Source: Streptomyces sp. NBC_01142 (GTDB lineage: Bacteria > Actinomycetota > Actinomycetes > Streptomycetales > Streptomycetaceae). From it: a stretch of DNA of 64,000 nt. The notes beneath the pieces are model-generated. The model was not told the DNA's origin. It saw only the letters and a list, made by a program, of their open reading frames with translations, and made no database searches. The position numbers and the translations under genes are program-made. Below, one piece after another: positions 51,566 to 64,000 of this stretch. The first letter of the stretch is position 1. Each line of letters begins with the position of its first letter. Location: positions 3,507,566-3,571,565 of the forward strand of contig NZ_JAPEOR010000002.1 of NCBI RefSeq assembly GCF_026341125.1, read 5' to 3'.

Positions 51566-52669
51566 GTGGCTGGATCCATCACATCTGATCGACCGCCGGT
51601 CGCCGAAGGGCGGCGGGACGGACCGCTGATCGTCACTGAAGATGTGGAACTGCTCGACGATCTGCTGCGGCTGTGCGCCGCGGCGGGAGCCGAGCCGGAC
51701 GTTCATCATTCGGTGCCGGAGCGCAGGGGAAGCTGGGAGGGCGCGCCACTGGTCCTCGTCGGCGACGACGCGGCCGCGCGCTGCCGCGGAGCCACGCGCA
51801 GACGCGGTGTGCTGCTCGTCGGGCGTGATCAGGACGACCCGGACGTCTGGCGGCGGGCGGTGGAGATCGGGGCCGACTGTGTGCTGCGGCTGCCCGATGC
51901 GGAGGGATGGCTCGTCGACCGGATCGCCGATGTGGTCGAGGGGGTGGGGCGCCAGGCGCTGACCGTCGGGGTGATCGGCGGACGAGGCGGCGCCGGCGCA
52001 TCGACGCTGGCCTGCGCCCTGGCAGTGACCTCGGCCCGTACGGGGCGGCGCACCATGCTCGTCGACGGCGACCCGCTGGGCGGAGGCCTCGACATCCTGC
52101 TCGGCGGGGAACAAGCGGAAGGCAGGCGATGGCCGGATTTCGCCGCTTCCAAGGGCCGGGTCGCCGGCGGCGCGCTGGAGGAGTCGCTGCCCGAGCTGCA
52201 TGCGCTGCGGGTGCTCAGCTGGGATCGCGGCGACTCGGTGGTGATCCCGCCGGAAGCGATGCGGTCGGTGCTGGCCGCTGCCCGCAGGCGCGGCGGGGTG
52301 GTGGTCGTGGATCTGCCGCGCCGGGTCGACGAGGGTGTGGTGGAGGCGCTCGCCCAGCTGGATCTCGGACTGCTGGTGGTGCCCGGCGAGCTGCGGGCGG
52401 TCGCCGCGGCCAACCGGGTGGCGTCGACGGTGGGCATGGTCCTTGAGGACCTGCGAGCGGTGGTGCGCGGTCCGTACGCCGCAGGGCTGGACGAGCAGTG
52501 GGTTGCGGACGCGCTGGGGCTGCCACTGGCGGGCGAACTGCCCCTGGAAGCAGGGTTGCTGGCCGCGCAGGACGGGGGAGCTCCGCCGGGCGGGAGCGCG
52601 CGCGGGCCGCTGGCCCGGTTCTGTACGGCCTTCTGGGAGCGGGCGCTGGCCGGGGGTGGGGTCTCATGA
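51566..52669 (+). CDS. ssd: septum-site-determining protein Ssd (CpaE/MinD-like)
   Basis: A 367-residue protein. A receiver-like N-terminal half (GPLIVTEDVELLDDLLRLCA) precedes a MinD/ParA ATPase-like half with a degenerate P-loop VIGGRGGAGASTLACALAVT (no conserved GK[TS]), then MLVDGDPLGGGLDILLGGEQ and VVVVDLPRRVDEG. This is the actinobacterial Ssd/CpaE type, found at the head of tad pilus-like loci and linked to cell-division inhibition in mycobacteria. I take GTG 51566 (VAGSITSDRP) as the start; GTG 51557 is possible. It overlaps the TadA ATPase gene by ATGA. Confidence 0.85.
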   Translation: MAGSITSDRPPVAEGRRDGPLIVTEDVELLDDLLRLCAAAGAEPDVHHSVPERRGSWEGAPLVLVGDDAAARCRGATRRRGVLLVGRDQDDPDVWRRAVEIGADCVLRLPDAEGWLVDRIADVVEGVGRQALTVGVIGGRGGAGASTLACALAVTSARTGRRTMLVDGDPLGGGLDILLGGEQAEGRRWPDFAASKGRVAGGALEESLPELHALRVLSWDRGDSVVIPPEAMRSVLAAARRRGGVVVVDLPRRVDEGVVEALAQLDLGLLVVPGELRAVAAANRVASTVGMVLEDLRAVVRGPYAAGLDEQWVADALGLPLAGELPLEAGLLAAQDGGAPPGGSARGPLARFCTAFWERALAGGGVS

Positions 52670-53538
52670 GCGCCGGGCTGCTGGATGCCGTACGGCAGCG
52701 GCTCGCCCAGAGCGGTGCCGAGCCGACGCCGGCGCGGGTGGCGGCCGCCCTGCGAGCACAGGGGCGGTTGCTCGGGGACACGGAAGTGCTGGGCGGTACC
52801 GAGGAGTTGCGGTGCGACCTGGTCGGCGCGGGGCCGCTGGAGCCGCTGCTGGCCGACCCGGCGGTGACGGATGTGCTGGTGTCCGCGCCGGACCGGGTGT
52901 GGGTGGACCGGGGCGGTGGGCTCGAGCTCACTGAGGTGACGTTCGCGGACGCGGCCTCGGTACGCAGGCTGGCTCAGCGGCTCGCGGGGCTGGCGGAGCG
53001 GCGGCTGGACGACGCGCGGCCGTGGGTGGATGCCCGGCTTCCGGACGGTACCCGGCTGCATGCGGTGCTGCCACCGGTCGCGGTCGGCTCGACGTGCCTG
53101 TCGCTGCGGGTGGTGCGGCCCAGGGCGTTCTCGGTAGGGGAACTGGTGGCGGCGGGGACGGTGCCGCCGGGCGGGGACCGGGTGCTGCGGGCTCTCATCG
53201 AGGCCCGGCTGTCGTTCCTGATCAGCGGTGGTACGGGATCGGGGAAGACGACCCTGCTCTCGAGTCTGCTGGGGCTGGTGGGGGTGCGCGAGCGGATCGT
53301 GCTGGCCGAGGACTCGGCGGAGCTCAGGCCCGAGCACCCGCACGTGGTGCGGCTGGAGTCGCGGACGGCCAACCAAGAGGGCGCGGGCCGGGTGACGCTG
53401 CGGGACCTGGTGCGACAGGCGCTGCGGATGCGGCCCGACCGGCTGGTGGTGGGGGAAGTGCGGGGAGCCGAGGTGACGGAGCTCCTCAGCGCCTTGAACA
53501 CCGGCCACGAAGGCGGCTGCGGTGTCGGGTGGCTCTGA
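52666..53538 (+). CDS. tadA: TadA/CpaF-family secretion ATPase, 3' end lost
   Basis: A 290-residue ATPase fragment. The N-terminal domain (GPLEPLLADPAVTDVLVSAP), Walker A (FLISGGTGSGKTTLLSSLLG), the Asp box (VLAEDSAELRPEHPHVVRLE) and Walker B region (QALRMRPDRLVVGEVRGAEV then TELLSALNTGHEG) are all present. Right after NTGHEGGCG the family sequence stops: the usual ...T.HANsp..... block and about 90-100 C-terminal residues are replaced by unrelated DNA ending at TGA 53536-53538. The TadB/TadC genes expected downstream are also missing. The protein is probably inactive. ATGA coupling to ssd. Confidence 0.85.
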   Translation: MSAGLLDAVRQRLAQSGAEPTPARVAAALRAQGRLLGDTEVLGGTEELRCDLVGAGPLEPLLADPAVTDVLVSAPDRVWVDRGGGLELTEVTFADAASVRRLAQRLAGLAERRLDDARPWVDARLPDGTRLHAVLPPVAVGSTCLSLRVVRPRAFSVGELVAAGTVPPGGDRVLRALIEARLSFLISGGTGSGKTTLLSSLLGLVGVRERIVLAEDSAELRPEHPHVVRLESRTANQEGAGRVTLRDLVRQALRMRPDRLVVGEVRGAEVTELLSALNTGHEGGCGVGWL

Positions 53539-53540
53539 AG

Positions 53541-53604
53541 ATTTCAGTAGCGCAAGATTCATTTCAGTAGAGATTTCAGTAGCGCACGAAAGATTTCAGT
53601 GCGA
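53541..53604. repeat. direct repeats of ATTTCAGTAG at the tadA breakpoint
   Basis: ATTTCAGT occurs at 53541, 53561, 53573 and 53593. The spacing (20, 12, 20) means a 32-bp unit is duplicated, each half containing the motif, followed by AGCGCA in the first of each pair. The block begins three bases after the truncated tadA stop and borders the metabolite operon. Confidence 0.8.
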
Positions 53605-53687
53605 CCACCAAGGGTGACGGTGACTGGTGCGCCCTTGCCGCAGCTCGGGTGCGTGACGGGCGCAAGCTGTCGTACGGTGCAGCGTGG

Positions 53688-54659
53688 TTAGGGGCTGCTG
53701 CCCACCTTTCCCTTGACCCCACCCGTGTCCTTTCCCGCGGGCGGGCCGCTGGAGCTGGCGCGGTGTTCGGTTCGGGCGACGACGATGGCCGCCACGATCA
53801 GGAAGAGGACGGCAATGGTGCCGGTCCAGGTAAGTGGGTAGCCGAGTACGCCTTGCACGAGGTAAGCGAGGCCGGGTTGGGTGGCGAGGAGAGCCATGGT
53901 GACGGCGGCCGGAGTCCGTTGGACACCGATCTGCAGGATGTACAGAGGCAGGACCACGCCGACGAGGGCGATCAGCGCGGTCACCGTCCAGCTGAGGCGA
54001 GGGGGTTGGGTCAGGCCGTCGCTGGTCAGGGCGAGGGCGGCGAGCAGGTAGGTCAGGTGAAAGCGGTGAGCCATCACGACGGCTGGTGCGATTCCGTGTG
54101 CACCGAGCTGCAGGGACAGGTGGGCGATGGCCGCGGCGCCCACCCCGGCCAGTACCGCGAGCCCGGCGCCGACCGCGCTGGCGGCTGGCCCGGACTGCCA
54201 AGTGGAGGTGTCCAGGAGGGAGGGCTGGACGGCCGCAGCGGTGATCACGGAGGCGGCGAACAGACCTGCGGAGCGCAGCCAGCTCGCCGCCGTGTGGCGT
54301 CGGCCTGACAGGGTGGCGAGCACCGTCGCGGCGGTCGGGCCGACCCCCGCCATCAGGCTGGCGGCGAACGCAGCTGGCACCCACACCAGCGCCAGGTACA
54401 GGCCCAGGAACGTCACCGCGCTGGCTACGTTGAGGGCCGCGAACAGGCGCAGTTTCCCCGGCCCGGCATGCGGCTCTGCCGCCCGGCGAGCCGGTGTGCG
54501 GCGTATCCGGCTCACAGCCAGGAACAGCAGCGTGCAGCCGAAGAAGGCCACCAGAGAGAAGCGCAGGCTGTCGCCGCTACTGATGCGGCCGGACAGGAAC
54601 GCCTCAGCGGCGGCCTGAAGCAGCACCGAGAGGGCGATGAGTGCGGGTGCCCCTGCCAT
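53688..54659 (-). CDS. EamA-family exporter
   Basis: A 323-residue membrane protein with ten helices in two EamA halves (for example IALSVLLQAAAEAFLSGRIS, LALVWVPAAFAASLMAGVGP, GLAVLAGVGAAAIAHLSLQL, and TGTIAVLFLIVAAIVVARTE at the end). EamA carriers export amino acids and small metabolites. Its start codon overlaps the ATP-grasp stop (TGATG), so it is the last gene of the eight-gene operon and the obvious efflux or self-protection step for the product. It ends 84 bases from the repeats at the tadA breakpoint. Confidence 0.85.
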   Translation of the reverse strand: MAGAPALIALSVLLQAAAEAFLSGRISSGDSLRFSLVAFFGCTLLFLAVSRIRRTPARRAAEPHAGPGKLRLFAALNVASAVTFLGLYLALVWVPAAFAASLMAGVGPTAATVLATLSGRRHTAASWLRSAGLFAASVITAAAVQPSLLDTSTWQSGPAASAVGAGLAVLAGVGAAAIAHLSLQLGAHGIAPAVVMAHRFHLTYLLAALALTSDGLTQPPRLSWTVTALIALVGVVLPLYILQIGVQRTPAAVTMALLATQPGLAYLVQGVLGYPLTWTGTIAVLFLIVAAIVVARTEHRASSSGPPAGKDTGGVKGKVGSSP

Positions 54660-55954
54660 CAGGCCGCCGTCCGCTGCAGCGGCTCGCTGGCGTCGTGCCG
54701 TTGGCCGGGGTCGGCCATGCGGTAGAAGGCGCCGTCGTCCTCCAGGTGGTGGATGAACCCCAGGGAGCTGTAAAGAAGTTCCTCGTCATCGTGGACGAGG
54801 TAGGCGATGCCGGAGGCGCCGGTGGTCAGCGTCGGGTCCGGGATCGGCACGCCGGTCGCGGGCAGCCGGTCGATGGAGTGGAAGCCGGGCAGTCGGCGCA
54901 GGATGCGCGCTCCGTCCACGGCGGCCAGTACCCCCTCCCGGAAGGTGCGCAGGAAGATCTTGGCGAGGGTACGGCCTCCCCCGTAGGGCAGCTCGAAGCG
55001 CTGGGCGAAGTCGTCCGGGCGCAGAAAACGCTCGGCGACCAGGTGCTGGTGGCTGTAGCCGAAGGCGGCGTGGTACGGGTCGGGTGCCAGGGACGGCCCC
55101 ATCACCCGGGAGTTGACCTCCACCAGGCGTGGTCCGGCCGTGGTGAGCATCACCTCGGTGTGCGCGGCGCCTTCCCGGATGCCGAGGGCGTCCAGACAGC
55201 GCAGCACGTACGCGACGAGGTCCTGCTCGCGGTCGTCGAGTTGGGGTCGGGAGACGATGTGGCGCAGGACCGGCGCCCCGGCGATGGTGTCGATGCGCTC
55301 CCGGTACACCTCCGAGAGCAGGTGGCGGCCGTCCATGCTGACGGTGTTGACGATGTACTGGGTCCCCTCCAGGTACTCCTGAAGCAGCACGTCGGTATTG
55401 GTCTCGCCCATCAGATTGGGCTGGAGCAGGGTGGCCTCGGCCGCTGCGCGGGCTTCGGCGCGGCTGGCGACCACGGTGCAGCCGTCGCTGCCCGCGCTGT
55501 TGCGCGGCTTGACCACCAGCGGGGTGCCGGGGGCAGCGCCCCAGGCGTCGAGGGTCTCGTCGAGCTCCGTGAGCGAGCTGATTGCCCGGGTGCGGGCGGC
55601 CGGCACGCTCTCGGCCTCGAGGGCGCGCACCATGAGTTCCTTGTCACGGCGGGCGGCGGCCAGCTGGACGTCGTGGTGCGGCAGTCCGAGTGCGTGAGCG
55701 AGGGCGTCGGCCAGCAGCACCCCGCGTTCGCTGGCCGCGATCACCGCGGTGATCTGCTTGTCGCGCAGCAGCTCTGCGGCCTCGGCAACGGCTTGCGGTC
55801 CGGTGGCAGTCAGCAGGCCGGTGTGCGGGGCCGGGTCGCTCGCGTGCTCGGCGTGCAGGGCGGCCTCGTAGAGATGCAGGCAGTCCGCACCCTCCTCGCG
55901 GAAGGCGGCGGCCAGCTCACGGCCGGTGGAGACGGGATCGACGAGCACGTACAT
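54659..55954 (-). CDS. ATP-grasp carboxylate-amine ligase
   Basis: A 431-residue ATP-grasp enzyme. The N-terminal Rossmann-like domain starts MYVLVDPVSTGRELAAAFRE. ATP-binding features include PLVVKPRNSAGSDGCTVVAS, VLLQEYLEGTQYIVNTVSMD and the metal site HTEVMLTTAGPRLVEVNSRV, with the E..xN pair. This is the layout of BacD/DdaF-like L-amino acid ligases and related C-N or C-O bond formers used to join amino acids without ribosomes. In this operon it probably joins the product of the earlier steps to another amino acid. Overlaps the exporter start by one base. Confidence 0.88.
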   Translation of the reverse strand: MYVLVDPVSTGRELAAAFREEGADCLHLYEAALHAEHASDPAPHTGLLTATGPQAVAEAAELLRDKQITAVIAASERGVLLADALAHALGLPHHDVQLAAARRDKELMVRALEAESVPAARTRAISSLTELDETLDAWGAAPGTPLVVKPRNSAGSDGCTVVASRAEARAAAEATLLQPNLMGETNTDVLLQEYLEGTQYIVNTVSMDGRHLLSEVYRERIDTIAGAPVLRHIVSRPQLDDREQDLVAYVLRCLDALGIREGAAHTEVMLTTAGPRLVEVNSRVMGPSLAPDPYHAAFGYSHQHLVAERFLRPDDFAQRFELPYGGGRTLAKIFLRTFREGVLAAVDGARILRRLPGFHSIDRLPATGVPIPDPTLTTGASGIAYLVHDDEELLYSSLGFIHHLEDDGAFYRMADPGQRHDASEPLQRTAA

Positions 55955-55977
55955 GGGCGGCGTCCTTTCGACAGGAT

Positions 55978-57471
55978 TCAACGGGTGGAGACGGCGAGGG
56001 CCTGGGCGACGGTGCCCGCCTGGCCAGCCGCGGTCCACAGGTAGTTGACGATGGCGGTGCGGGCGGCCCCCATGGCTCCGACCATCCAGATGCGTTCCGG
56101 GTCGGCTCCGCCGGGACGCAGCAGCCGTAGGTCCGGGCCGGTGAGCGGTGGAGCGCAGTGCGGGGAGCAGGCGGCGGGACCGAGGGCGAGCAGCGCGGGG
56201 CCGTGCGTGCACACGGCAGGCCTGAGGTATCCGGAGGCCGACAGCACATGAGTGTGGTGCTCGGCCGGGCCGGCGGCCGTCCAGCGCACCTGCCAGCCGC
56301 CGTCCGGGTCCGGTGTGAGCGCCGCAGGGGTGCCGCGGCGCACGGCGAGCCGTCCGGCCAGGCCGTGCCCGGCCAGGGCGCGGGCGCTGGACACCGGGAT
56401 GGCCGAGATGTGGCGGGCGATCAGCGGGCGGAAGCGCGTGAGCAGACGGTCTCGCTCGGCGGAGGGCCAGCCCTCGGTCCAGTCGTTCACCGCCTCGATG
56501 AGTTCGGCGATCACGTCTTGCCAGGCATTGTCGCCCGCCTCGGTCTGCCGCAGTTCTGTGGTGAGCCGCTCCAGCGCCTTGGGTTCGGTGCCGAATTGCC
56601 GACGCAGCGCGGCCGCCGGGTGCCCCCAGCCGGCCCTGGCGCTCCGGACGGCGCGCGCCAGGACCCGGGTGAGCGTCCGGTCGAAATCCGGGGTGCCGGG
56701 GTTCAGTTCGCGCAAGTCGGCCAACAGCCCGGTCGGCCGGGCCGTACGGCACAGCCGGTTGCGGACGGCTGGCAGTTCGCCGGAAGGCGAGCACAAGGTG
56801 ACCTGCCGGTCAGCCCCGCACAGCACCAGAGCGGCATCCACCGCGGACAGCTTGCTGCCGACGACCAGCACTCTGGCGTCGGTGGGCAGTGCCCGGAGCC
56901 GGTCCGTGGGGTAGGGGCCGGCAAGTAGATCCGGATGGTCCGCATACGCGCGCAGCAGCTCGGGCAGGTGCGGCTGGTCGCCACCGGCCGCCACCACCAC
57001 ATCGGTGGCCTCCAGCGTGCTGCCGTCGTCCAGGGTGACCCGGTATCCCTCGCCCGCGCGTTCTGCCGGGAGTACCGTACGGGCCCGCGTGGTCACCTGG
57101 CGCACCTGGGCCCCCCGCGCCTGAAGCTCCCGGCTCAGCTGCCCGAACCGTTCCCGGCAGTACTGCCCGACCAGCGCACGCGGGACGAAGTCGGCGCGGC
57201 CCACCGGCCAGCCCCGTGCCGCCAGGTAGCGCTGGAGGTCAGAGCGGTCAGCGCGGTACAGCGAGGTGACATCGACCGAGGTGTTGCAGCGCAGCTTTGG
57301 GTCGGTGGTGCCGAAGGCCACGCCGAACCCGGCCGGCCGCGGGTCCACCACCGTCACCGATCCGGGCCGGAACCCGGCGTGCTCCGTCAGTTGGTGCAGC
57401 ACCGCCGTCGCGGCGGCACCACCGCCGATAACCACCAGGTGCCCGCCCGCGGTGAGGGGACGGCTGTTCAC
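55978..57471 (-). CDS. FAD/NAD(P)-binding protein (FAD_NAD_binding_9 type)
   Basis: A 497-residue flavoprotein-like protein. HLVVIGGGAAATAVLHQLTE is an N-terminal FAD-binding motif, followed by VTVVDPRPAGFGVAFGTTDP and KLRCNTSV, the marker of this subgroup. DVVVAAGGDQPHLPELLRAY and ARVLVVGSKLSAVDAALVLC provide further dinucleotide sites. The family is related to lysine/ornithine N-hydroxylases but without proven activity in most members. In context it may oxidise the carrier-bound or free amino acid. GTG at 57471 follows AAAGGAGAT; the frame is open to 57531. Confidence 0.78.
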   Translation of the reverse strand: MNSRPLTAGGHLVVIGGGAAATAVLHQLTEHAGFRPGSVTVVDPRPAGFGVAFGTTDPKLRCNTSVDVTSLYRADRSDLQRYLAARGWPVGRADFVPRALVGQYCRERFGQLSRELQARGAQVRQVTTRARTVLPAERAGEGYRVTLDDGSTLEATDVVVAAGGDQPHLPELLRAYADHPDLLAGPYPTDRLRALPTDARVLVVGSKLSAVDAALVLCGADRQVTLCSPSGELPAVRNRLCRTARPTGLLADLRELNPGTPDFDRTLTRVLARAVRSARAGWGHPAAALRRQFGTEPKALERLTTELRQTEAGDNAWQDVIAELIEAVNDWTEGWPSAERDRLLTRFRPLIARHISAIPVSSARALAGHGLAGRLAVRRGTPAALTPDPDGGWQVRWTAAGPAEHHTHVLSASGYLRPAVCTHGPALLALGPAACSPHCAPPLTGPDLRLLRPGGADPERIWMVGAMGAARTAIVNYLWTAAGQAGTVAQALAVSTR

Positions 57472-57508
57472 AGGACAGATCTCCTTTCCCGCCAGGGACG
57501 GCGTTTGC

Positions 57509-58198
57509 TCAGCCGCGTACACGTATCTCACGCAGCCATGCGGCGAATTCGGGCGAGTTCAGCAGGGCCGAGTGACCGCCTGGGAATTCCCGGTGGATAC
57601 ACCCCTTGGCAGTGACACCGGCCCATGCGCCGATTCCGCCTGCGGACGTGAGCGGGTCCTCTTCACCACGCACGGCGAAGACCGGACACCGCACTTCCGG
57701 ATGGGCCGAGGCGGTGAATTCCCTGAGTACCCGGAGGTCCTCCCCCGCGGTGTCCACAACGATGTCCCGCCACTCATCGGACTCGTCCGGCAGCAGGCCA
57801 GGGTCGATACCGTCCAGGTAGGCCGCAGTGTCCGACCGGCTCCGACACGCCTGCTCTGGCACCGTGAGCAGGGCCGGCGCGGTGGCTCCGGCGACCACCA
57901 GTGCGGAGACCTCCGTCCCGCGGTCCTCCAGTTCCCTTGCCGTGGCATAGGCGACGTAGGCGCCGAAGCTGTGCCCGACGAGAACCGGGCGATACGGCTG
58001 AAGCCGCCCCACCTGGGTGACGCACGACTCCACGACCTTCTGGAACGATGCCGCCGCCTTGCCGAAATCCCTACCGAAACGGCCTGGATACCGGGCGAGC
58101 CACGCGGAGGGTTCCAGCTCACGCAGCAGTGGACGGAGCTCACTGCCGAACGAACCGGCACCCGGGAAGACGATGATGCCTGGGCTCTCGGGACTCAC
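57509..58198 (-). CDS. type II thioesterase
   Basis: A 229-residue alpha/beta hydrolase of the external thioesterase class that clears misloaded carrier proteins or releases products. IIVFPGAGSFGSELRPLLRE supplies the oxyanion loop, VLVGHSFGAYVAYATARELE the nucleophile Ser77, and IHREFPGGHSALLNSPEFAA the histidine. The acid Asp lies in AVRGEEDPLTSAGG. GTG 58198 follows GGAG; an upstream TTG at 58210 is less likely. Located directly after the AsnB gene in the operon; the only carrier domain it can serve locally is the A-T protein. Confidence 0.88.
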   Translation of the reverse strand: MSPESPGIIVFPGAGSFGSELRPLLRELEPSAWLARYPGRFGRDFGKAAASFQKVVESCVTQVGRLQPYRPVLVGHSFGAYVAYATARELEDRGTEVSALVVAGATAPALLTVPEQACRSRSDTAAYLDGIDPGLLPDESDEWRDIVVDTAGEDLRVLREFTASAHPEVRCPVFAVRGEEDPLTSAGGIGAWAGVTAKGCIHREFPGGHSALLNSPEFAAWLREIRVRG

Positions 58199-58249
58199 TG
58201 AATTCTCCAATCCTCAGACACGAGTGCGCGCGTATCGGGGCCACGGGAG

Positions 58250-60022
58250 TCAGAGTCCAAGGCCGAGCTCGTCCATGACCATGGCGATGCTGATCGCGCT
58301 GAGCCTGAAGTCCCACTTCTCCGCGCCCTGACCGGCGCGTGTGCCGAGACAGCCGGGAGTGAAGATGCCACTGGCCTCGACGAGGCCGCGCCACTCGTCC
58401 CAGGTCCGCGCATCCGTGACCGAGCGCAGATCGTATGCGGTGAATCCGTGCTTCCCACGGCGGAGAACCGAGTCCGGGACGATTCCCTCGTACGCCGATT
58501 TCAGGCAGGCCTTCCCCTCGAAGTCGACCACCTTCGCGCTGTCTTCGACTTGCAGGGCGAGTGAGACGACCGCATTGCCGAGGAACGGGTAGCGCCCCTC
58601 AATGGAATTTCCCATGAGCATCGAGTCGCCGTGATCGCCGAGCAGGTGGCCCGACAGCTGGACGTACACGTCGGCGATGGAGCGCAACTGCATCGGTGAA
58701 AGCGACTTCACCTCGTCCTCGGAGAACGGGATGAGCCTCGTACGCCAGAACTCGTCGCCTTCCAGCGCTTCTTGCGCCACAGGGGCGAGGTAGTCGTCCC
58801 GCCGCTGGCCCACCTTGCGCCAGTCGACCTCCCAGCTGAAGTCCGCCCTGCCCCACGCCCGCTCGTTCTCCGCGCGGGAAGTCCGGCTCGAGCGGGTCGC
58901 ACTGTCGAAGGCGTAGGAGTCATAGCCGAAGAACAGCTCGTCCGCGCCTTCGCCGGACACCACTCCCTTGATTCCGGAGAAGCGCACGCTATCGGCCAGC
59001 ATCATGGCGGCCACGTTGTACGTCTCACGCTGCGGATAGCAGCAGTGCCGGACCATCTGCTCGAACTTCGAGGCGATGTCGGTCTGCCGGCACAGGATCT
59101 GCTCGTGTTTGCTTCCGACTGCCTGCGCCACTTCCCGCTGGAAACGTCCCTCGTCGAGGCCCGGATCGTCGAAGACTACCGAGAACGTCCGGACAGGCCG
59201 GGCAGTGAGAGCCACCGCTTCCGTCAGAATCGCGGTGGAGTCGAATCCTCCGCTCAGATAGGCGCCGATCTCCACGTCGGCATGCAGGCGGTCCCGGACC
59301 GACCGCTGCAGTCCCTCGCGCAGCGCCTCGCCGGATACGGGTTCCGCGGCCGGTGCGAAGTCGCCGTAGCGCCAGTAACGCAGGGTCTCCCGGCCACTGG
59401 CGTCGAACCGGACGGCGCAGCCGGGGGGAACGGCCTGCACCTCTTTCACGAGAGTGCGCGGCGCGACGATGTTGCCCATCGAGAAATACTGGTCGACCGC
59501 CCCCATATCCACCTTCCAGGACCGGCTGACGCACTGAACCAGCGGCTTGATCTCCGAGGCGAAGTGCACGTCCGGACCCGTAGCGGTGTAGTACATCGGG
59601 CAGATGCCGAACCGGTCCCTGGCCAGGAACATCGCATTCTCGGCGCGGTCGAGAACGACCGTGGCGAACTGTCCGTCCACCAGTCGGAGTCCCTCGATCC
59701 CGTACTGTGCGACTAGCTCTGGGATGACGGATACGTCGACGCCGTTGTTCTGCCGGTCGGCGCCCACTCTGGCGCGCAGATCCCGAGCGTTGAACACTTC
59801 GCCGTTCGTCATGGCCACGTAGCGGCCGCTGCGGTCCTCGGCCGGCTGCCACCCGTCGGTCAGGCCGGTGAAGCCGAGGCGGCCGAGCTTCGCGGAGATC
59901 GTCTCGGTGTTCAGCGAGTAGGTCTCGTCGGGCCCACGGTGGATGAGCCGGGAGTGCATGGCAGCGGCAATGCTGCGATCAACCCCACCGTTCGGGGAAA
60001 AAGTCCCGCATACGCCACACAT
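58250..60022 (-). CDS. glutamine-dependent asparagine-synthetase-like amidotransferase
   Basis: A 590-residue AsnB-family enzyme. The N-terminal MCGVCGTF places Cys2 ready for glutaminase activity, with RLIHRGPDETYS and AMTNGEVFN completing the class II amidotransferase site. The synthase domain shows the PP-loop IGAYLSGGFDSTAILTEAVA and SGEGADELFFGYDSY. I start at ATG 60022 so that Cys follows the initiator Met; a GTG three codons earlier overlaps the previous stop (GTGA). The active glutaminase argues against a beta-lactam-synthetase-like role, which normally lacks that cysteine, and for amide formation on an acid. Confidence 0.88.
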   Translation of the reverse strand: MCGVCGTFSPNGGVDRSIAAAMHSRLIHRGPDETYSLNTETISAKLGRLGFTGLTDGWQPAEDRSGRYVAMTNGEVFNARDLRARVGADRQNNGVDVSVIPELVAQYGIEGLRLVDGQFATVVLDRAENAMFLARDRFGICPMYYTATGPDVHFASEIKPLVQCVSRSWKVDMGAVDQYFSMGNIVAPRTLVKEVQAVPPGCAVRFDASGRETLRYWRYGDFAPAAEPVSGEALREGLQRSVRDRLHADVEIGAYLSGGFDSTAILTEAVALTARPVRTFSVVFDDPGLDEGRFQREVAQAVGSKHEQILCRQTDIASKFEQMVRHCCYPQRETYNVAAMMLADSVRFSGIKGVVSGEGADELFFGYDSYAFDSATRSSRTSRAENERAWGRADFSWEVDWRKVGQRRDDYLAPVAQEALEGDEFWRTRLIPFSEDEVKSLSPMQLRSIADVYVQLSGHLLGDHGDSMLMGNSIEGRYPFLGNAVVSLALQVEDSAKVVDFEGKACLKSAYEGIVPDSVLRRGKHGFTAYDLRSVTDARTWDEWRGLVEASGIFTPGCLGTRAGQGAEKWDFRLSAISIAMVMDELGLGL

Positions 60023-60027
60023 CGCTT

Positions 60028-61767
60028 TCACACACCCCGGTCACGAAGTTCGTCGGCAAGGACCTTCAAGTTCTCCGCCCGGAGTACGTCCCGGACACCG
60101 GCATCCATCCAGCCGAGTTCCTTCAGCTTGTTGACGAGGATCACCGTGGAGGCCGAATCGCCACCGATGTCATAGAAGTTGTCGTTGAGGGCGGCGTCGT
60201 TCACACCGGTGAGGTGGCGCACCAGATCGAGGATCTGCTCCTCCGGCGGGACGGTTTTGCCGCCGGTCTCACCAACTTCCGGCGCGGAATGACGGCTGGC
60301 CTTGAGAGCGTCGCGATCGACCTTGCCGTTACGCGTGTAGGGAAGCGACTCGATCTGCTGGATCACCGAGGGGACCTTGTAGGAGTCGAGGACCGTCTCC
60401 AGGTGCGCACGCAGCGCCCGGGGGGTGACGGTGCCCTGGTAGTAGCAGACCAGAGCCTCAGCGGCGTAGTCGTCCGCGCCCTCATGCGACTCTGCGGTCA
60501 CCACCGCCTCCACGACTCCGTCGAGCCGGCATGCCGCGCTCTCGATCTCGCCGGGATCGAGCCGGTAGCCCCGGATCTTCAGCTGCCGGTCCAGCCGTTC
60601 GACGAAGAAGACCTGCCCGCCGCGGCGTTCGACGATGTCGCCGGTCCGGTAGACCCGGCTCGCCGCGCCGTCGGTGAAGGGCCGCAGGCCCTGCGCGGTC
60701 AGATAGCCGATCGCGACGCTCTCGCCGGTGATGACCAGCTCACCACGGGTGACTTGCGATCCGGTGGGCCCGTCCCCGCCCGCCGTCGGCAGGGGGAGGA
60801 TGTCGTAACTGCAATCGCCCACCACCGCGCCGAGCGGCACGGACTCGGTGCAGTCGTCCGGGTCCAGCGGGTCGCTGAGGAAGTTGCAGACGGTGGTCTC
60901 CGTGGTCCCGTACGCGTTGTGGAGCGCCGCCTCCGACGACCACTTCTGTACCACCGCCTGGCGGCAGGCTCCGCCGCCGTTGATGACGTGCTCCAGGCTC
61001 ATCGCGCTCGACGGCTCGGTCGCCGTCAGCGCGAACGGAGTCGTCTTCAGATGAGTGATGCGGAACTTCTCCAGAGTGGCCTGGAGCACCGTTCCTGGGC
61101 TGAGCTGCTCCTCACCGAGAACCACCAGGCACGCGCCTGCGGTCAGGGTCCACAGGATCTCCGTGATGCATCCGTCGAAGGTCAGTCGGGCGAACTGCAG
61201 CGTACGGCTCTTTGTGCCCAACTCCAGAGAGCGCACATGGTCCTGGACCATCCGGGCCAGCGGTCCGGTGCGCACCAGCACACACTTGGGCTCCCCCGTC
61301 GATCCCGAGGTGTGGATCGCGTAACCCACACTGCCCTGGTACGGCGCAAGCTCCGCAGGTGCCCGCAGCTGCCGCTCTCCCGCGTCCCCGCGCCACTCGG
61401 CCGGCGTGTCGACGAGCTCTGGCGGGTGCGACAAGGCAGGGCTCTTGGCGACCCTGTTGATACCGAGCGAGGACACCTTGGTCCTGTTCGAGGACCCGCT
61501 GTCACGGGGGTCGATGAACACGAACGGGCGTCCGGCCCGCAATGCGCCCACCATGGCGACAATGGAGCCCGAGGTACGTATGGCCTCGATCCCGATGAAC
61601 TCACCGGGCGCGGTCAGTGCTTCGAGCTGCCCGATGAACTCCCGCACTTGCTCGCCGAATTCCCGGTAGCTGAGCACCCCGTCCGCGGTCTCCAGGGCAG
61701 TGCATTCGGGACGCTCCTGGATGGTGTGCTCGATCGCGTCTGCCACTGATATCTGCTGTACGGGCAC
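60028..61767 (-). CDS. free-standing NRPS adenylation-carrier didomain
   Basis: A 579-residue NRPS-type module without condensation domain. Core motifs: A3 HTSGSTGEPKCVLVRTG (152-168), A5 NAYGTTETT, A7 YRTGD, A8 ERLDRQLKIRGYRLDPGEIE, A10 NGKVDR. The carrier site is NFYDIGGDSAST with Ser538. By hand alignment to PheA the pocket reads D198, G199, T202, K241, I262, G264, A285, V293, C294 and the A10 Lys. That is closest, to my knowledge, to Asp/Asn-type codes (D-L-T-K-x-G), tentatively. It should load an amino acid onto its own carrier for modification by neighbours. GTG start, four bases after the FAH stop. Confidence 0.92.
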   Translation of the reverse strand: MPVQQISVADAIEHTIQERPECTALETADGVLSYREFGEQVREFIGQLEALTAPGEFIGIEAIRTSGSIVAMVGALRAGRPFVFIDPRDSGSSNRTKVSSLGINRVAKSPALSHPPELVDTPAEWRGDAGERQLRAPAELAPYQGSVGYAIHTSGSTGEPKCVLVRTGPLARMVQDHVRSLELGTKSRTLQFARLTFDGCITEILWTLTAGACLVVLGEEQLSPGTVLQATLEKFRITHLKTTPFALTATEPSSAMSLEHVINGGGACRQAVVQKWSSEAALHNAYGTTETTVCNFLSDPLDPDDCTESVPLGAVVGDCSYDILPLPTAGGDGPTGSQVTRGELVITGESVAIGYLTAQGLRPFTDGAASRVYRTGDIVERRGGQVFFVERLDRQLKIRGYRLDPGEIESAACRLDGVVEAVVTAESHEGADDYAAEALVCYYQGTVTPRALRAHLETVLDSYKVPSVIQQIESLPYTRNGKVDRDALKASRHSAPEVGETGGKTVPPEEQILDLVRHLTGVNDAALNDNFYDIGGDSASTVILVNKLKELGWMDAGVRDVLRAENLKVLADELRDRGV

Positions 61768-61771
61768 GCCT

Positions 61772-62611
61772 TCAGCCCTTCACGGAGTGGGAGAGGGTGC
61801 CGATGCCCTCTACGACAGAGGTGATGGAATCGCCGGAGTTGATCACTGCGGCTCCCGGAGTTCCCGTGCAGATGACGGTTCCGGGCACGAGGGTGCGGCC
61901 GGCCGTGAAGTACTCGACCAGGTAGCCGAGGTCGTACTTCATGTCGGAGACCTGTGCGGAGGCGACGACCTCACCGTTGCGCACGGTCGAGACCCGGATC
62001 GACTGAAGGTCCGCGTCTTCGAACTCGTCGAGGGTCACCAGCTGCGGGCCCACGCTGCAGAACGTGTCGAATCCCTTGGCCCACGGAATGTAGCGGGGGT
62101 TCTCTCGGATGACGTCTTCCGCAGTCATGTCGAGGACGGCCGTGACACCCGCGATGACCGACCTCCACTCGTCGCGCCGCACGTTCTTGCATTCCGTCCC
62201 GACGACGAGGCCCAGTTCCGCTTCCGCGGTCACCCGCTTGCTCTGCGACGGAAGCTCGATCACCCCGCCGTTTCCGATGAGGCAGTTGGCCGGCCGCAGA
62301 TACGAGCCGGGCCCGGACGAGGGCTGCTGTGCGCTCAGGTCCTGGGAGTGCCCCTTGTAGTTGAGGCCGGCCCCCCAGATGTCGCCGGCGTCGATGATGG
62401 TCGCGGCCTCCTCCAGGCGGACGTCGGCCGGCTCGGCGTCCGGCCGGGACTCGAGCAGCCCGGCGAGCTCGCTCCTGCGGGACGCGTCCAGCAGGTCGGC
62501 CAGGCGGTGCGGGGCTTTGTAGCCTTCGATGCCGGACAGTGAAATCCAGCCGCCGCGGTGGCTCGCCAGAATCTGGTGCCCGTCTTCGGTGTTGAACCGT
62601 GCCAGTCGCAC
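61772..62611 (-). CDS. fumarylacetoacetate-hydrolase-family protein
   Basis: A 279-residue FAH-superfamily enzyme. GAGLNYKGHSQDLSAQQPSS, TAEAELGLVVGTECKNV (the acidic metal-binding cluster) and KGFDTFCSVGPQLVTLDEFE then VICTGTPGAAVINSGDSITS match the COG0179 fold. Members hydrolyse, isomerise, decarboxylate or hydrate 2-oxo and 2-hydroxydienoate compounds. Placed next to a DRE-TIM aldolase, it recalls the hydratase/aldolase pairs of catechol meta-cleavage, used here in biosynthesis or in the reverse sense; that is inference. GTG 62611 has GGGAG seven bases upstream. Confidence 0.85.
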   Translation of the reverse strand: MRLARFNTEDGHQILASHRGGWISLSGIEGYKAPHRLADLLDASRRSELAGLLESRPDAEPADVRLEEAATIIDAGDIWGAGLNYKGHSQDLSAQQPSSGPGSYLRPANCLIGNGGVIELPSQSKRVTAEAELGLVVGTECKNVRRDEWRSVIAGVTAVLDMTAEDVIRENPRYIPWAKGFDTFCSVGPQLVTLDEFEDADLQSIRVSTVRNGEVVASAQVSDMKYDLGYLVEYFTAGRTLVPGTVICTGTPGAAVINSGDSITSVVEGIGTLSHSVKG

Positions 62612-62644
62612 TTTGTTGCTCCCTATTCGCGTGGTTTGAAGGGG

Positions 62645-63673
62645 TCAGGCCACGGCCGTGCGCTGGGAAATTCGCTGAGCCGCGGCACGGATGTCGTTCT
62701 TGCCCGCGCTCCGCGGGGCCAGCTCGACGGCGGCCTCCATCAAGGAAGCCGGGTCGACGATGAGCTCGGAGCACAACTGCTCGATGAGCGGGAAGAATCC
62801 GGAGTGCATGCCGATCACGCCGCCGAGCACCTGCATGTTCCGGTCTTCGGGCAGGAGGTCCAGGCTGGTCCGGCAGAAGTGCGCGAGCCTGGCCAGCTGC
62901 TTGTAGTCGAACCGATCTTCACCGAGAGTGCTGATGATCCCGGCCAGCGACTCGGTCTCCGCGTTGCCGGCGCCGCGGCCTATTCCGTCGAGCGTTCCGT
63001 CGACGATCGCGGCGCCCGCCTCGATCGCGGCGATGCTGTTCGCGTTTGCCATGCCCAGGTTGTCATGGCCGTGGAATCCGATGACGGAGAAGCTCTCCTT
63101 CGCGACGGCCACGTAGCGGTGGACGTCGCTGGGAAGCATGGAGCCGTACGAGTCCACCACGTACACACCGGCGATGGCGGGAGTGACGCCACTCAGCAGG
63201 CCGGGAATCTCCTCAGCGGGCGTGCCGCTCGTCTTCATCAGGTTGAGGTAGACCTCGCCACAGATCTCGGTGGCGCGCTCGATGTACTCGAGGTGGTCCG
63301 GGACCCGCTCGGGCTCCATGCCGATGCGGACGAACGACATTCCCTCGTCACAAAGTTCGCGGAGCGTGGAGAGCCGGCTGAACTCTGGCTGCGCGAACAT
63401 GCCCCACGAGGTGGCCGTCAGCTCCTCCCGCGCGATCGCGCACCAGCGCGCGAGATCGATGTTGCAGGCCTTGATGCCGGACCGCTCCGCCTCGAAGCCG
63501 AGGCCGTGTCCGATCTCGACCTTGCCGATCGGCGTCTCATTGAGCCGGCCGAGGAGCTCACCGACGAACTTCTCGTCGAGCTGGAAGTCGACTGCGTAGG
63601 AACCATCACGCAGTGTCGCGTCAAGAATTTCCGCCTTCCGCGGCTGGAACGGCGGGGTATGTACTGCAGACAT
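62645..63673 (-). CDS. DRE-TIM metallolyase, 4-hydroxy-2-oxovalerate aldolase-like
   Basis: A 342-residue TIM-barrel enzyme. LDATLRDGSYAVDF (Asp18, Arg22, Asp23) gives the DRE-TIM active site. GFHGHDNLGMANANSIAAIE provides the metal-binding His201/His203, and DGIGRGAGNAET follows. This is the pattern of HOA aldolases and of homologous Claisen-type lyases. Such enzymes make or break carbon-carbon bonds between pyruvate-type donors and aldehydes. No acetaldehyde dehydrogenase partner (DmpF) is visible in the window. The ATG follows a strong GGAGGAAA. It is the first gene of the operon. Confidence 0.88.
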   Translation of the reverse strand: MSAVHTPPFQPRKAEILDATLRDGSYAVDFQLDEKFVGELLGRLNETPIGKVEIGHGLGFEAERSGIKACNIDLARWCAIAREELTATSWGMFAQPEFSRLSTLRELCDEGMSFVRIGMEPERVPDHLEYIERATEICGEVYLNLMKTSGTPAEEIPGLLSGVTPAIAGVYVVDSYGSMLPSDVHRYVAVAKESFSVIGFHGHDNLGMANANSIAAIEAGAAIVDGTLDGIGRGAGNAETESLAGIISTLGEDRFDYKQLARLAHFCRTSLDLLPEDRNMQVLGGVIGMHSGFFPLIEQLCSELIVDPASLMEAAVELAPRSAGKNDIRAAAQRISQRTAVA

Positions 63674-64000
63674 ATGTTTCCTCCGGAGCTCGGAAGTGTG
63701 GACATGGACTTGGTCTACCGTCGCGAATTGAGCGCCGACAGCACAAGAACCAGGAGTAGAGCAGGAGATTGACCCCTGATTCCGCGAAACCGTTATGGAA
63801 TCCGCGGACTTCACATCGACGCAGTGCGCACCGGTACTCCAGGGCGACGCCTGTATTCCGCCGCGTCCGGTGCGGCATGGCAACACATAGCGCACGGACT
63901 CATCAGAGAGCGACGCGACGGCGCGCCCTTCACGGAGGATTCTGTGGAGGAGTTCAGAGCGGAGTTCCCATGTAATCCAGGCCTACCCGGCCAGGCAGTG
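63674..64000. promoter_or_regulatory. upstream region of the metabolite operon
   Basis: No complete gene is visible in the last 327 bases. It should contain the operon promoter, reading leftward. On the plus strand a TTGACC (63763) opens a possible -35 box, but I cannot assign it. The remaining frames are short. The next gene lies outside the window. Confidence 0.45.

Follow-up and report, generated by a model that had tools for sequence, protein, structure and literature searches.

A conserved gene cluster, probably for a carrier-bound amino acid, with a leucyl-tRNA synthetase-like editing-domain protein on a Tn7-like transposon of Streptomyces sp. NBC_01142

The last part of a 64,000-nucleotide stretch from Streptomyces sp. 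NBC_01142 (the window; C2:3507566-3571565 of a 10.1 Mb genome in 15 contigs) contains eight minus-strand open reading frames (ORFs) between positions 53688 and 63673, all free of internal stops. A preliminary description had read them as a compact, leftward operon for an amino-acid-derived metabolite. With ATG 60022 used as the start of the AsnB gene and ATG 55954 as that of the ATP-grasp gene, the gaps from the aldolase to the EamA gene are 33, 4, 5, 39, -23, 23, and -1 bases. The eight genes are genuine and tightly coupled, and Pfam and NCBIfam agree with the family named for each of them.

The first gene (62645-63673, with GGAGG before its ATG) encodes a DRE-TIM (HMGL-like) enzyme of the pyruvate aldolase type with 342 residues. 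Its nearest model is 4-hydroxy-2-oxovalerate aldolase (TIGR03217), at 124.3 bits against a cut-off of 286, and its nearest structure by sequence is 4lrs; the aldolase alignment comprises 32 rows, own sequence included. The second gene (61772-62611; 279 residues) has an FAA_hydrolase match and belongs to the FAH superfamily, closest to the HpaG/HpcE isomerase-decarboxylase group and below the cut-off of that group. The third (60028-61767; 579 residues) is a free-standing adenylation-thiolation (A-T) didomain with AMP-binding and PP-binding matches. Its binding pocket reads D-G-T-K-I-G-A-V-C-K, an Asp/Asn-like code with a roomier pocket; in an alignment of 31 rows, conservation reaches at least 95% at eight of the ten positions and is lower at those read I and V. 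The fourth (58250-60022; 590 residues) is AsnB, a glutamine-dependent asparagine-synthetase-like protein with GATase and Asn_synthase matches. Among 30 aligned rows, at least 95% retain the N-terminal Cys and an SGGFDS motif, and the structure closest to AsnB in sequence is the hydroxyamidotransferase 7ylz. The fifth (57509-58210; 233 residues) is a type II thioesterase with a Thioesterase match. These five belong to the conserved core defined below. The remaining three form a tail: an FAD/NAD(P)-binding oxidoreductase with an NAD_binding_9 match (55978-57531; 517 residues), an ATP-grasp ligase (54659-55954; 431 residues) and an EamA-type transporter (53688-54659; 323 residues). The nearest models of the ATP-grasp protein, PRK07206 and the dapdiamide synthase DdaF, are both below cut-off, and a plasmid search with its gene returned 184 records, all below 60% identity. 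Adenylation and carrier domains typical of nonribosomal peptide synthetases (NRPSs) are thus present; no condensation domain was found in the eight window genes, as the preliminary description had noted, or in the part of the contig C10 ORFs that was scanned.

The last base of the window is the last base of contig C2, and positions 53522-63672 recur at 100% identity on contigs C10 and C11. Window 53522-64000 corresponds to C10:31818-42296 reversed, and window 53522-63672 to the end of C11; the aldolase gene accordingly has three copies, all at 100% identity, one of them truncated at its start. Because the window stops at a contig end and repeats on C10 and C11, the operon is neither complete nor single-copy. 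The sequence past position 64000, to which the preliminary description had pointed, is supplied by C10, and it adds both a divergent gene arm and a transposon setting, neither of which figures in that description. A terminal inverted repeat of a linear chromosome is rejected as the source of the identical copies in view of the TGTCGGG ends and 5-bp duplications.

The element spans 42,139 bp between TGTCGGG termini at window position 53523 and C10:157. The termini are inverted TGT...ACA sequences with ATTTCAGT-type repeats inside both ends, the left terminus and its repeats occupying 53523-53602 (plus strand). The window holds 10,478 bp of the element (53523-64000) and C10 the remainder. In copy one, TGCGG stands at the end of the window flank (53518-53522, plus strand) and again after the right end on contig C1. 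This flank contains the 5' part of a tadA/cpaF-type T2SSE ATPase gene (52498-53522, plus strand; the start is that of the listed ORF, and the true start may lie further in), and the 3' part lies on C1 (L172:7703-8008). On the T2SSE profile, the window ORF (residues 110-338) covers positions 4-238 and the C1 piece (residues 1-47) covers positions 240-280. Since pieces of T2SSE flank both sides of the element, the insertion splits the tadA-type gene at window position 53522. For copy two, TCAAG closes the flank at the left end on C11 and recurs just after the right end on contig C3; the same flank, free of the element, opens contig C9. The two insertions are therefore each marked by one 5-bp pair. 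The four junctions of the element lie at window position 53522, C11:32136, C1:7703, and C3:15224. The sequence of C10 is repeated without change in the arms on C2 (10.48 kb), C11 (10.15 kb), C1 (7.70 kb), and C3 (15.22 kb); since the assembly contains a single interior, on C10, the two copies are assumed to be identical there.

The tns genes (L033:13768-7883 on C10, minus strand), identified by profile matches, lie 18-24 kb from the aldolase gene. They comprise a TnsA-like gene (NF033179 TnsA_like_Actin, 190.3 bits, cut-off 110), a TnsC/TniB AAA+ gene (TniB, 52.2 bits, cut-off 22.4) and tniQ (69.8 bits, cut-off 27). Between the TnsA-like and TniB genes is a 740-residue DDE-type protein that scores below cut-off with rve (21.3 bits, cut-off 32.6) and with an IS481 model (47.1, cut-off 224). 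Further cargo includes extra TniQ genes and several insertion sequence (IS) transposases. The eight genes are the left arm of a divergent cluster that sits on a Tn7-like transposon at two places in the genome. A look at 85 other loci showed no transposase genes, within flanks of about 10 kb that are too short to reach the tns distance, and end-like repeats showed no clustering in the 13 loci of family I, described below. Another cargo gene is of the ABC-3C (CTD6)/Mrr type (L033:18486-19607 on C10), probably a defense system, and the left flank of copy two encodes an AbiJ_NTD4-type gene (L036:8691-9656 on C11), a domain of abortive-infection proteins.

On C10, the divergent arm runs away from the aldolase gene, all on the minus strand, in the order PP-loop ATPase (L034:11134-9617; 505 residues, with a GGGKDS motif), EamA exporter (L034:9454-8468), short-chain dehydrogenase/reductase (SDR; L034:8468-7695), fatty acid synthase (FAS)-type acyl carrier protein (ACP; L034:7644-7396), leucyl-tRNA synthetase (LeuRS)-like protein with a LeuRS editing-domain match (L034:7252-5759), and phosphopantetheinyl transferase (PPTase; L034:5781-4954). 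The PP-loop family counts at least 585 proteins, and some relatives are fused to other proteins, namely NRPS modules and glutamate-synthase-related, ornithine-N5-oxygenase-like, and FAD/FMN-dehydrogenase proteins (P0236-P0243). The LeuRS-like protein contains the LeuRS CP1 editing fold. The HIGH signature (H[IMLV]GH) is absent from it, its HPGH sitting inside the editing domain, whereas the LeuRS of the strain itself has HVGH; a KMSKS-type pattern matched neither protein. By these motifs and a predicted model, the protein is a LeuRS paralogue that keeps the editing domain and a LeuRS-like fold and lacks the HIGH signature of the synthetic site.

The distribution of these genes was examined in 61 loci from named genomes, collected in one scan seeded with two aldolase peptide patterns, with the gene table built by tblastn. 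The aldolase, FAH, A-T, and AsnB genes occur together in 29 of the 61, which excludes chance as the origin of the grouping and rules out eight independent housekeeping genes. The remaining loci comprise L071, on a short contig, with three of the four genes; L077, with the aldolase and a weak A-domain match only; L087, with the aldolase and FAH; and 29 loci in which a distant aldolase (32-40% identity) stands by itself or, in nine cases, alongside a weak AsnB match. In family I, consisting of the 13 cassette loci that carry the PP-loop gene (59-89% identity), the thioesterase is found in 13/13, as are the five upstream genes together with the PP-loop gene; these and the following counts apply within the stretches examined. 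All nine core genes (aldolase, FAH, A-T, AsnB, thioesterase, PP-loop ATPase, EamA, LeuRS-like, and SDR) are present in five loci (L057, L058, L082, L084, and L089). The nine lie on the same strand in both Desulfoluna spongiiphila and D. butyratoxydans, where the SDR gene is cut by the end of the stretch. The core is spread over Actinomycetes, Desulfoluna (Thermodesulfobacteriota; all nine, the SDR weakly), and Pseudoalteromonas (Gammaproteobacteria; 7/9). The FAD, ATP-grasp, and last EamA genes occur together in 3/13 loci (L057, L061, and L089), a fourth (L058) being cut by the contig end at the FAD gene. These three genes are, on the gene content of relatives, best regarded as accessory, and the core as five window genes plus four beyond it. 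The preliminary description thus drew the unit wrongly in equating it with the eight genes, and its idea of a coupled small-molecule pathway around a carrier-bound amino acid is supported; the gene set, which it could match to no described pathway, was likewise not found in the open-access literature.

Other loci show related arrangements. Family II (L066-L070, L073-L076, L079, L081, L083, and L085) comprises 13 cassette loci with a P450 group, accompanied by an AMP-ligase group in 7/13 and a 77-residue ACP group in 6/13; Pfam checks covered L066 and L067, the latter of which additionally has an amino acid permease. L072, L078, and L080 belong to neither family. In another Streptomyces genome, L149 retains PP-loop, LeuRS-like, SDR, EamA, ACP, ATP-grasp, and EamA genes; no aldolase, FAH, A-T, AsnB, or thioesterase match was found in its 20 kb, and the cluster is apparently a remnant. 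In L129 and L130, a PP-loop gene is grouped with ATP-grasp, nitrilase, and YbaK-type tRNA-editing genes in a small cluster. The L129 nitrilase has Pfam and NCBIfam matches, nearest to the Nit6803 family and below its cut-off, and that of L130 is 84% identical to it. A further Streptomyces cluster, distinct and conserved across L131, L132, L150, and L151, combines PP-loop, methylaspartate mutase E, A-type asparagine synthetase, luciferase-like monooxygenase, flavin reductase, and ATP-grasp genes.

With the arrangement of genes and transposon firmly established, a proposal can be made for chemistry and resistance, to which we assign a probability of about 0.55: the cluster would make a toxic, leucine-like amino acid through a carrier-bound amide and a PP-loop step, with an editing-only LeuRS providing self-resistance. 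The aldolase and FAH enzyme would assemble a 2-oxo diacid, to be aminated by a housekeeping aminotransferase. The A-T didomain would load the amino diacid and AsnB would amidate its side-chain carboxylate on the carrier. That the two tailoring families share the A-domain pocket points to a single common substrate, probably an acidic amino acid subsequently amidated by AsnB. The PP-loop enzyme would activate the amide with ATP, most likely for dehydration to a nitrile: asparagine synthetases of two unrelated kinds occur near PP-loop genes, suggesting action on a side-chain amide, and the nitrilases in two PP-loop loci suggest a nitrile product. The SDR would set the oxidation level, the thioesterase would free the product, and EamA would export it. 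The product would be a toxic leucine look-alike. By hydrolyzing tRNA(Leu) that carries this product in error, the LeuRS-like protein would provide self-resistance; an editing-only LeuRS suits a product that LeuRS attaches by mistake. In this strain, the amino acid would probably be linked to a partner by the ATP-grasp ligase and oxidized by the FAD enzyme. As a matter of speculation, a leucine-shaped candidate is an amino acid derived from 4-methyleneglutamine, built from two pyruvates.

Several observations weigh against this proposal. Within family I, the LeuRS-like gene is found in just 8/13 loci, the divergent-arm EamA in 9/13, and the SDR in 11/13, with 34-38% identity and a cut-off gene in the two Desulfoluna loci. 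Six loci of a third PP-loop type show no editing-domain match. In the aldolase, a Tyr stands at the position of the catalytic His of the classic family. No aminotransferase was recognized in the annotated part of the ORFs or in the recurring gene groups, so amination is assigned to the host by assumption. At E 0.001, neither Pfam nor NCBIfam assigns a family to the PP-loop protein, QueC and AsnB models included, and sequence and profile searches of the PDB gave no match. One NRPS-fused PP-loop domain follows an A domain with a code unlike Asn, which weakens an Asn-only view, and other fusions involve glutamate-synthase-like and N-oxygenase-like proteins.

The invariant cysteines bear on the most serious of the alternatives, in which cluster and resistance logic are the same and the PP-loop enzyme yields a thioamide, thioacid, or amidine in place of a nitrile. 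Four Cys, including a CxxC and a later Cys, are invariant in 51/51 aligned PP-loop rows; CxxC-type patterns also occur in Fe-S tRNA thiolases, and this leaves room for thiolation. The fold neighbors include the [4Fe-4S] tRNA thiolase NcsA and N-acetyl sugar amidotransferase, an enzyme that makes amidines. The two types of asparagine synthetase are equally compatible with any amide chemistry, and the nitrilase-family genes adjoining L129 and L130 speak for the nitrile. The thioamide or amidine outcome is judged a minority prospect, to be kept in view. Somewhat less probable is a biosynthetic or proofreading role for the LeuRS-like protein, clearing wrong aminoacyl groups off the carrier or using Leu-tRNA, with no part in self-resistance. 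Such a role would suit the embedding of its gene in the Desulfoluna core run and an editing pocket that is kept only in part (FTTDWSP versus fttrpdt in the strain's own LeuRS). Two points favor self-resistance: the model follows LeuRS over the full length, past the editing domain, and, for one type of distant PP-loop enzyme, a YbaK-type editing gene is present in 4/4 loci.

The model of the preliminary description, that an oligopeptide is made by the eight genes on their own through rhizocticin-like aldolase/FAH/ATP-grasp logic, now looks very improbable. It could draw on the tight coupling of the eight genes and on the ATP-grasp neighbor DdaF, which makes dapdiamide, but the accessory trio, found together in 3/13 PP-loop relatives (a fourth being cut), contrasts with the 13/13 of the five upstream genes and PP-loop gene. 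The analogy gained no support and rests solely on generic aldolase/hydratase/ATP-grasp logic, and no phosphonate (phosphoenolpyruvate mutase) gene turned up among the scanned ORFs, for which no dedicated search was made. An assembly artefact arising from one ordinary chromosomal locus, compatible with the single assembly of the interior and with the roughly equal lengths by which C2 and C11 enter the element, can be dismissed with little hesitation, as the two different flanks at each element end form two pairs with matching 5-bp duplications, one of which rejoins the halves of tadA.

By the sequence comparisons, the cluster family is real and conserved, and it was found undescribed in the open-access literature searched, with an unusual resistance-like component and apparent mobility on a Tn7-like transposon in this genome. 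A bolder synthesis is possible, and we offer it tentatively, as one that could well prove wrong: the transposon would carry and copy a complete antimetabolite cluster for a nitrile leucine mimic, made via a carrier-bound amide and tolerated through an editing-only LeuRS, and the new PP-loop family would consist of nitrile synthetases often accompanied by a dedicated tRNA-editing protein of LeuRS CP1 or YbaK type. If true, a separate tRNA-proofreading protein acting in self-resistance would be a searchable genome marker, and editing domains of either type could be used to locate toxic amino acids in genomes. The uncharacterized PP-loop family would gain testable chemistry, and a metabolite cluster moved as cargo of a Tn7-like transposon would represent a direct route of horizontal transfer.

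Known systems share parts of this design. The AMDH domain of CysH (cystobactamid), which has an SGGKD motif, dehydrates carrier-bound asparagine to beta-cyanoalanine (PMC7966384). CysH AMDH and its AlbIV homologue share with the system proposed here an amide on a carrier-bound Asp/Asn-type residue, a similar motif (SGGKD versus GGGKD), and a free-standing NRPS module; in those proteins Asn is the substrate and the 38-kDa domain forms an insertion within the A domain (PMC7966384), whereas here a separate PP-loop protein (491 residues in the model) comes with its own AsnB, aldolase, and FAH, the likeness being one of motif and setting. A search with an NRPS-fused PP-loop relative returned eight proteins, none named as AMDH. 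ATP-dependent nitrile synthetases include QueC/ToyM, ArtA/NitB, and the AsnB-like PesC, which makes nitriles; they resemble the proposed step in using ATP to activate a carboxylate or amide on the way to a nitrile (PMC13060819), and differ in that the protein here matches neither QueC nor AsnB models. Dapdiamide biosynthesis likewise has a free-standing ATP-grasp ligase in one operon with an A-T unit, although the ligase here is accessory and its DdaF match reaches 148.5 of 840 bits, below cut-off. The fold list of the LeuRS-like protein contains structures 5ah5 and 3zgz, linked to the agrocin 84/AgnB2 LeuRS. Agrocin 84 combines LeuRS-linked toxicity with a producer-encoded LeuRS paralogue, as is proposed here; AgnB2 is a working synthetase, whereas the protein here keeps the editing domain and has no HIGH signature. 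A MetRS-paralogue system was set aside as involving a different synthetase and gene set (PMC2922099). In common with Tn7-like transposons, the element has TnsA-like, TnsC/TniB, and TniQ genes, repeats inside TGT...ACA ends, and the 5-bp duplication, along with a putative DDE gene. On clusters as Tn7-like cargo in Streptomyces, the literature search listed one paper, which concerns Rhodococcus (PMC12915292). Tn7 targets a site beside glmS, whereas one copy here targets a tadA gene, and the cargo differs in including a metabolite cluster.

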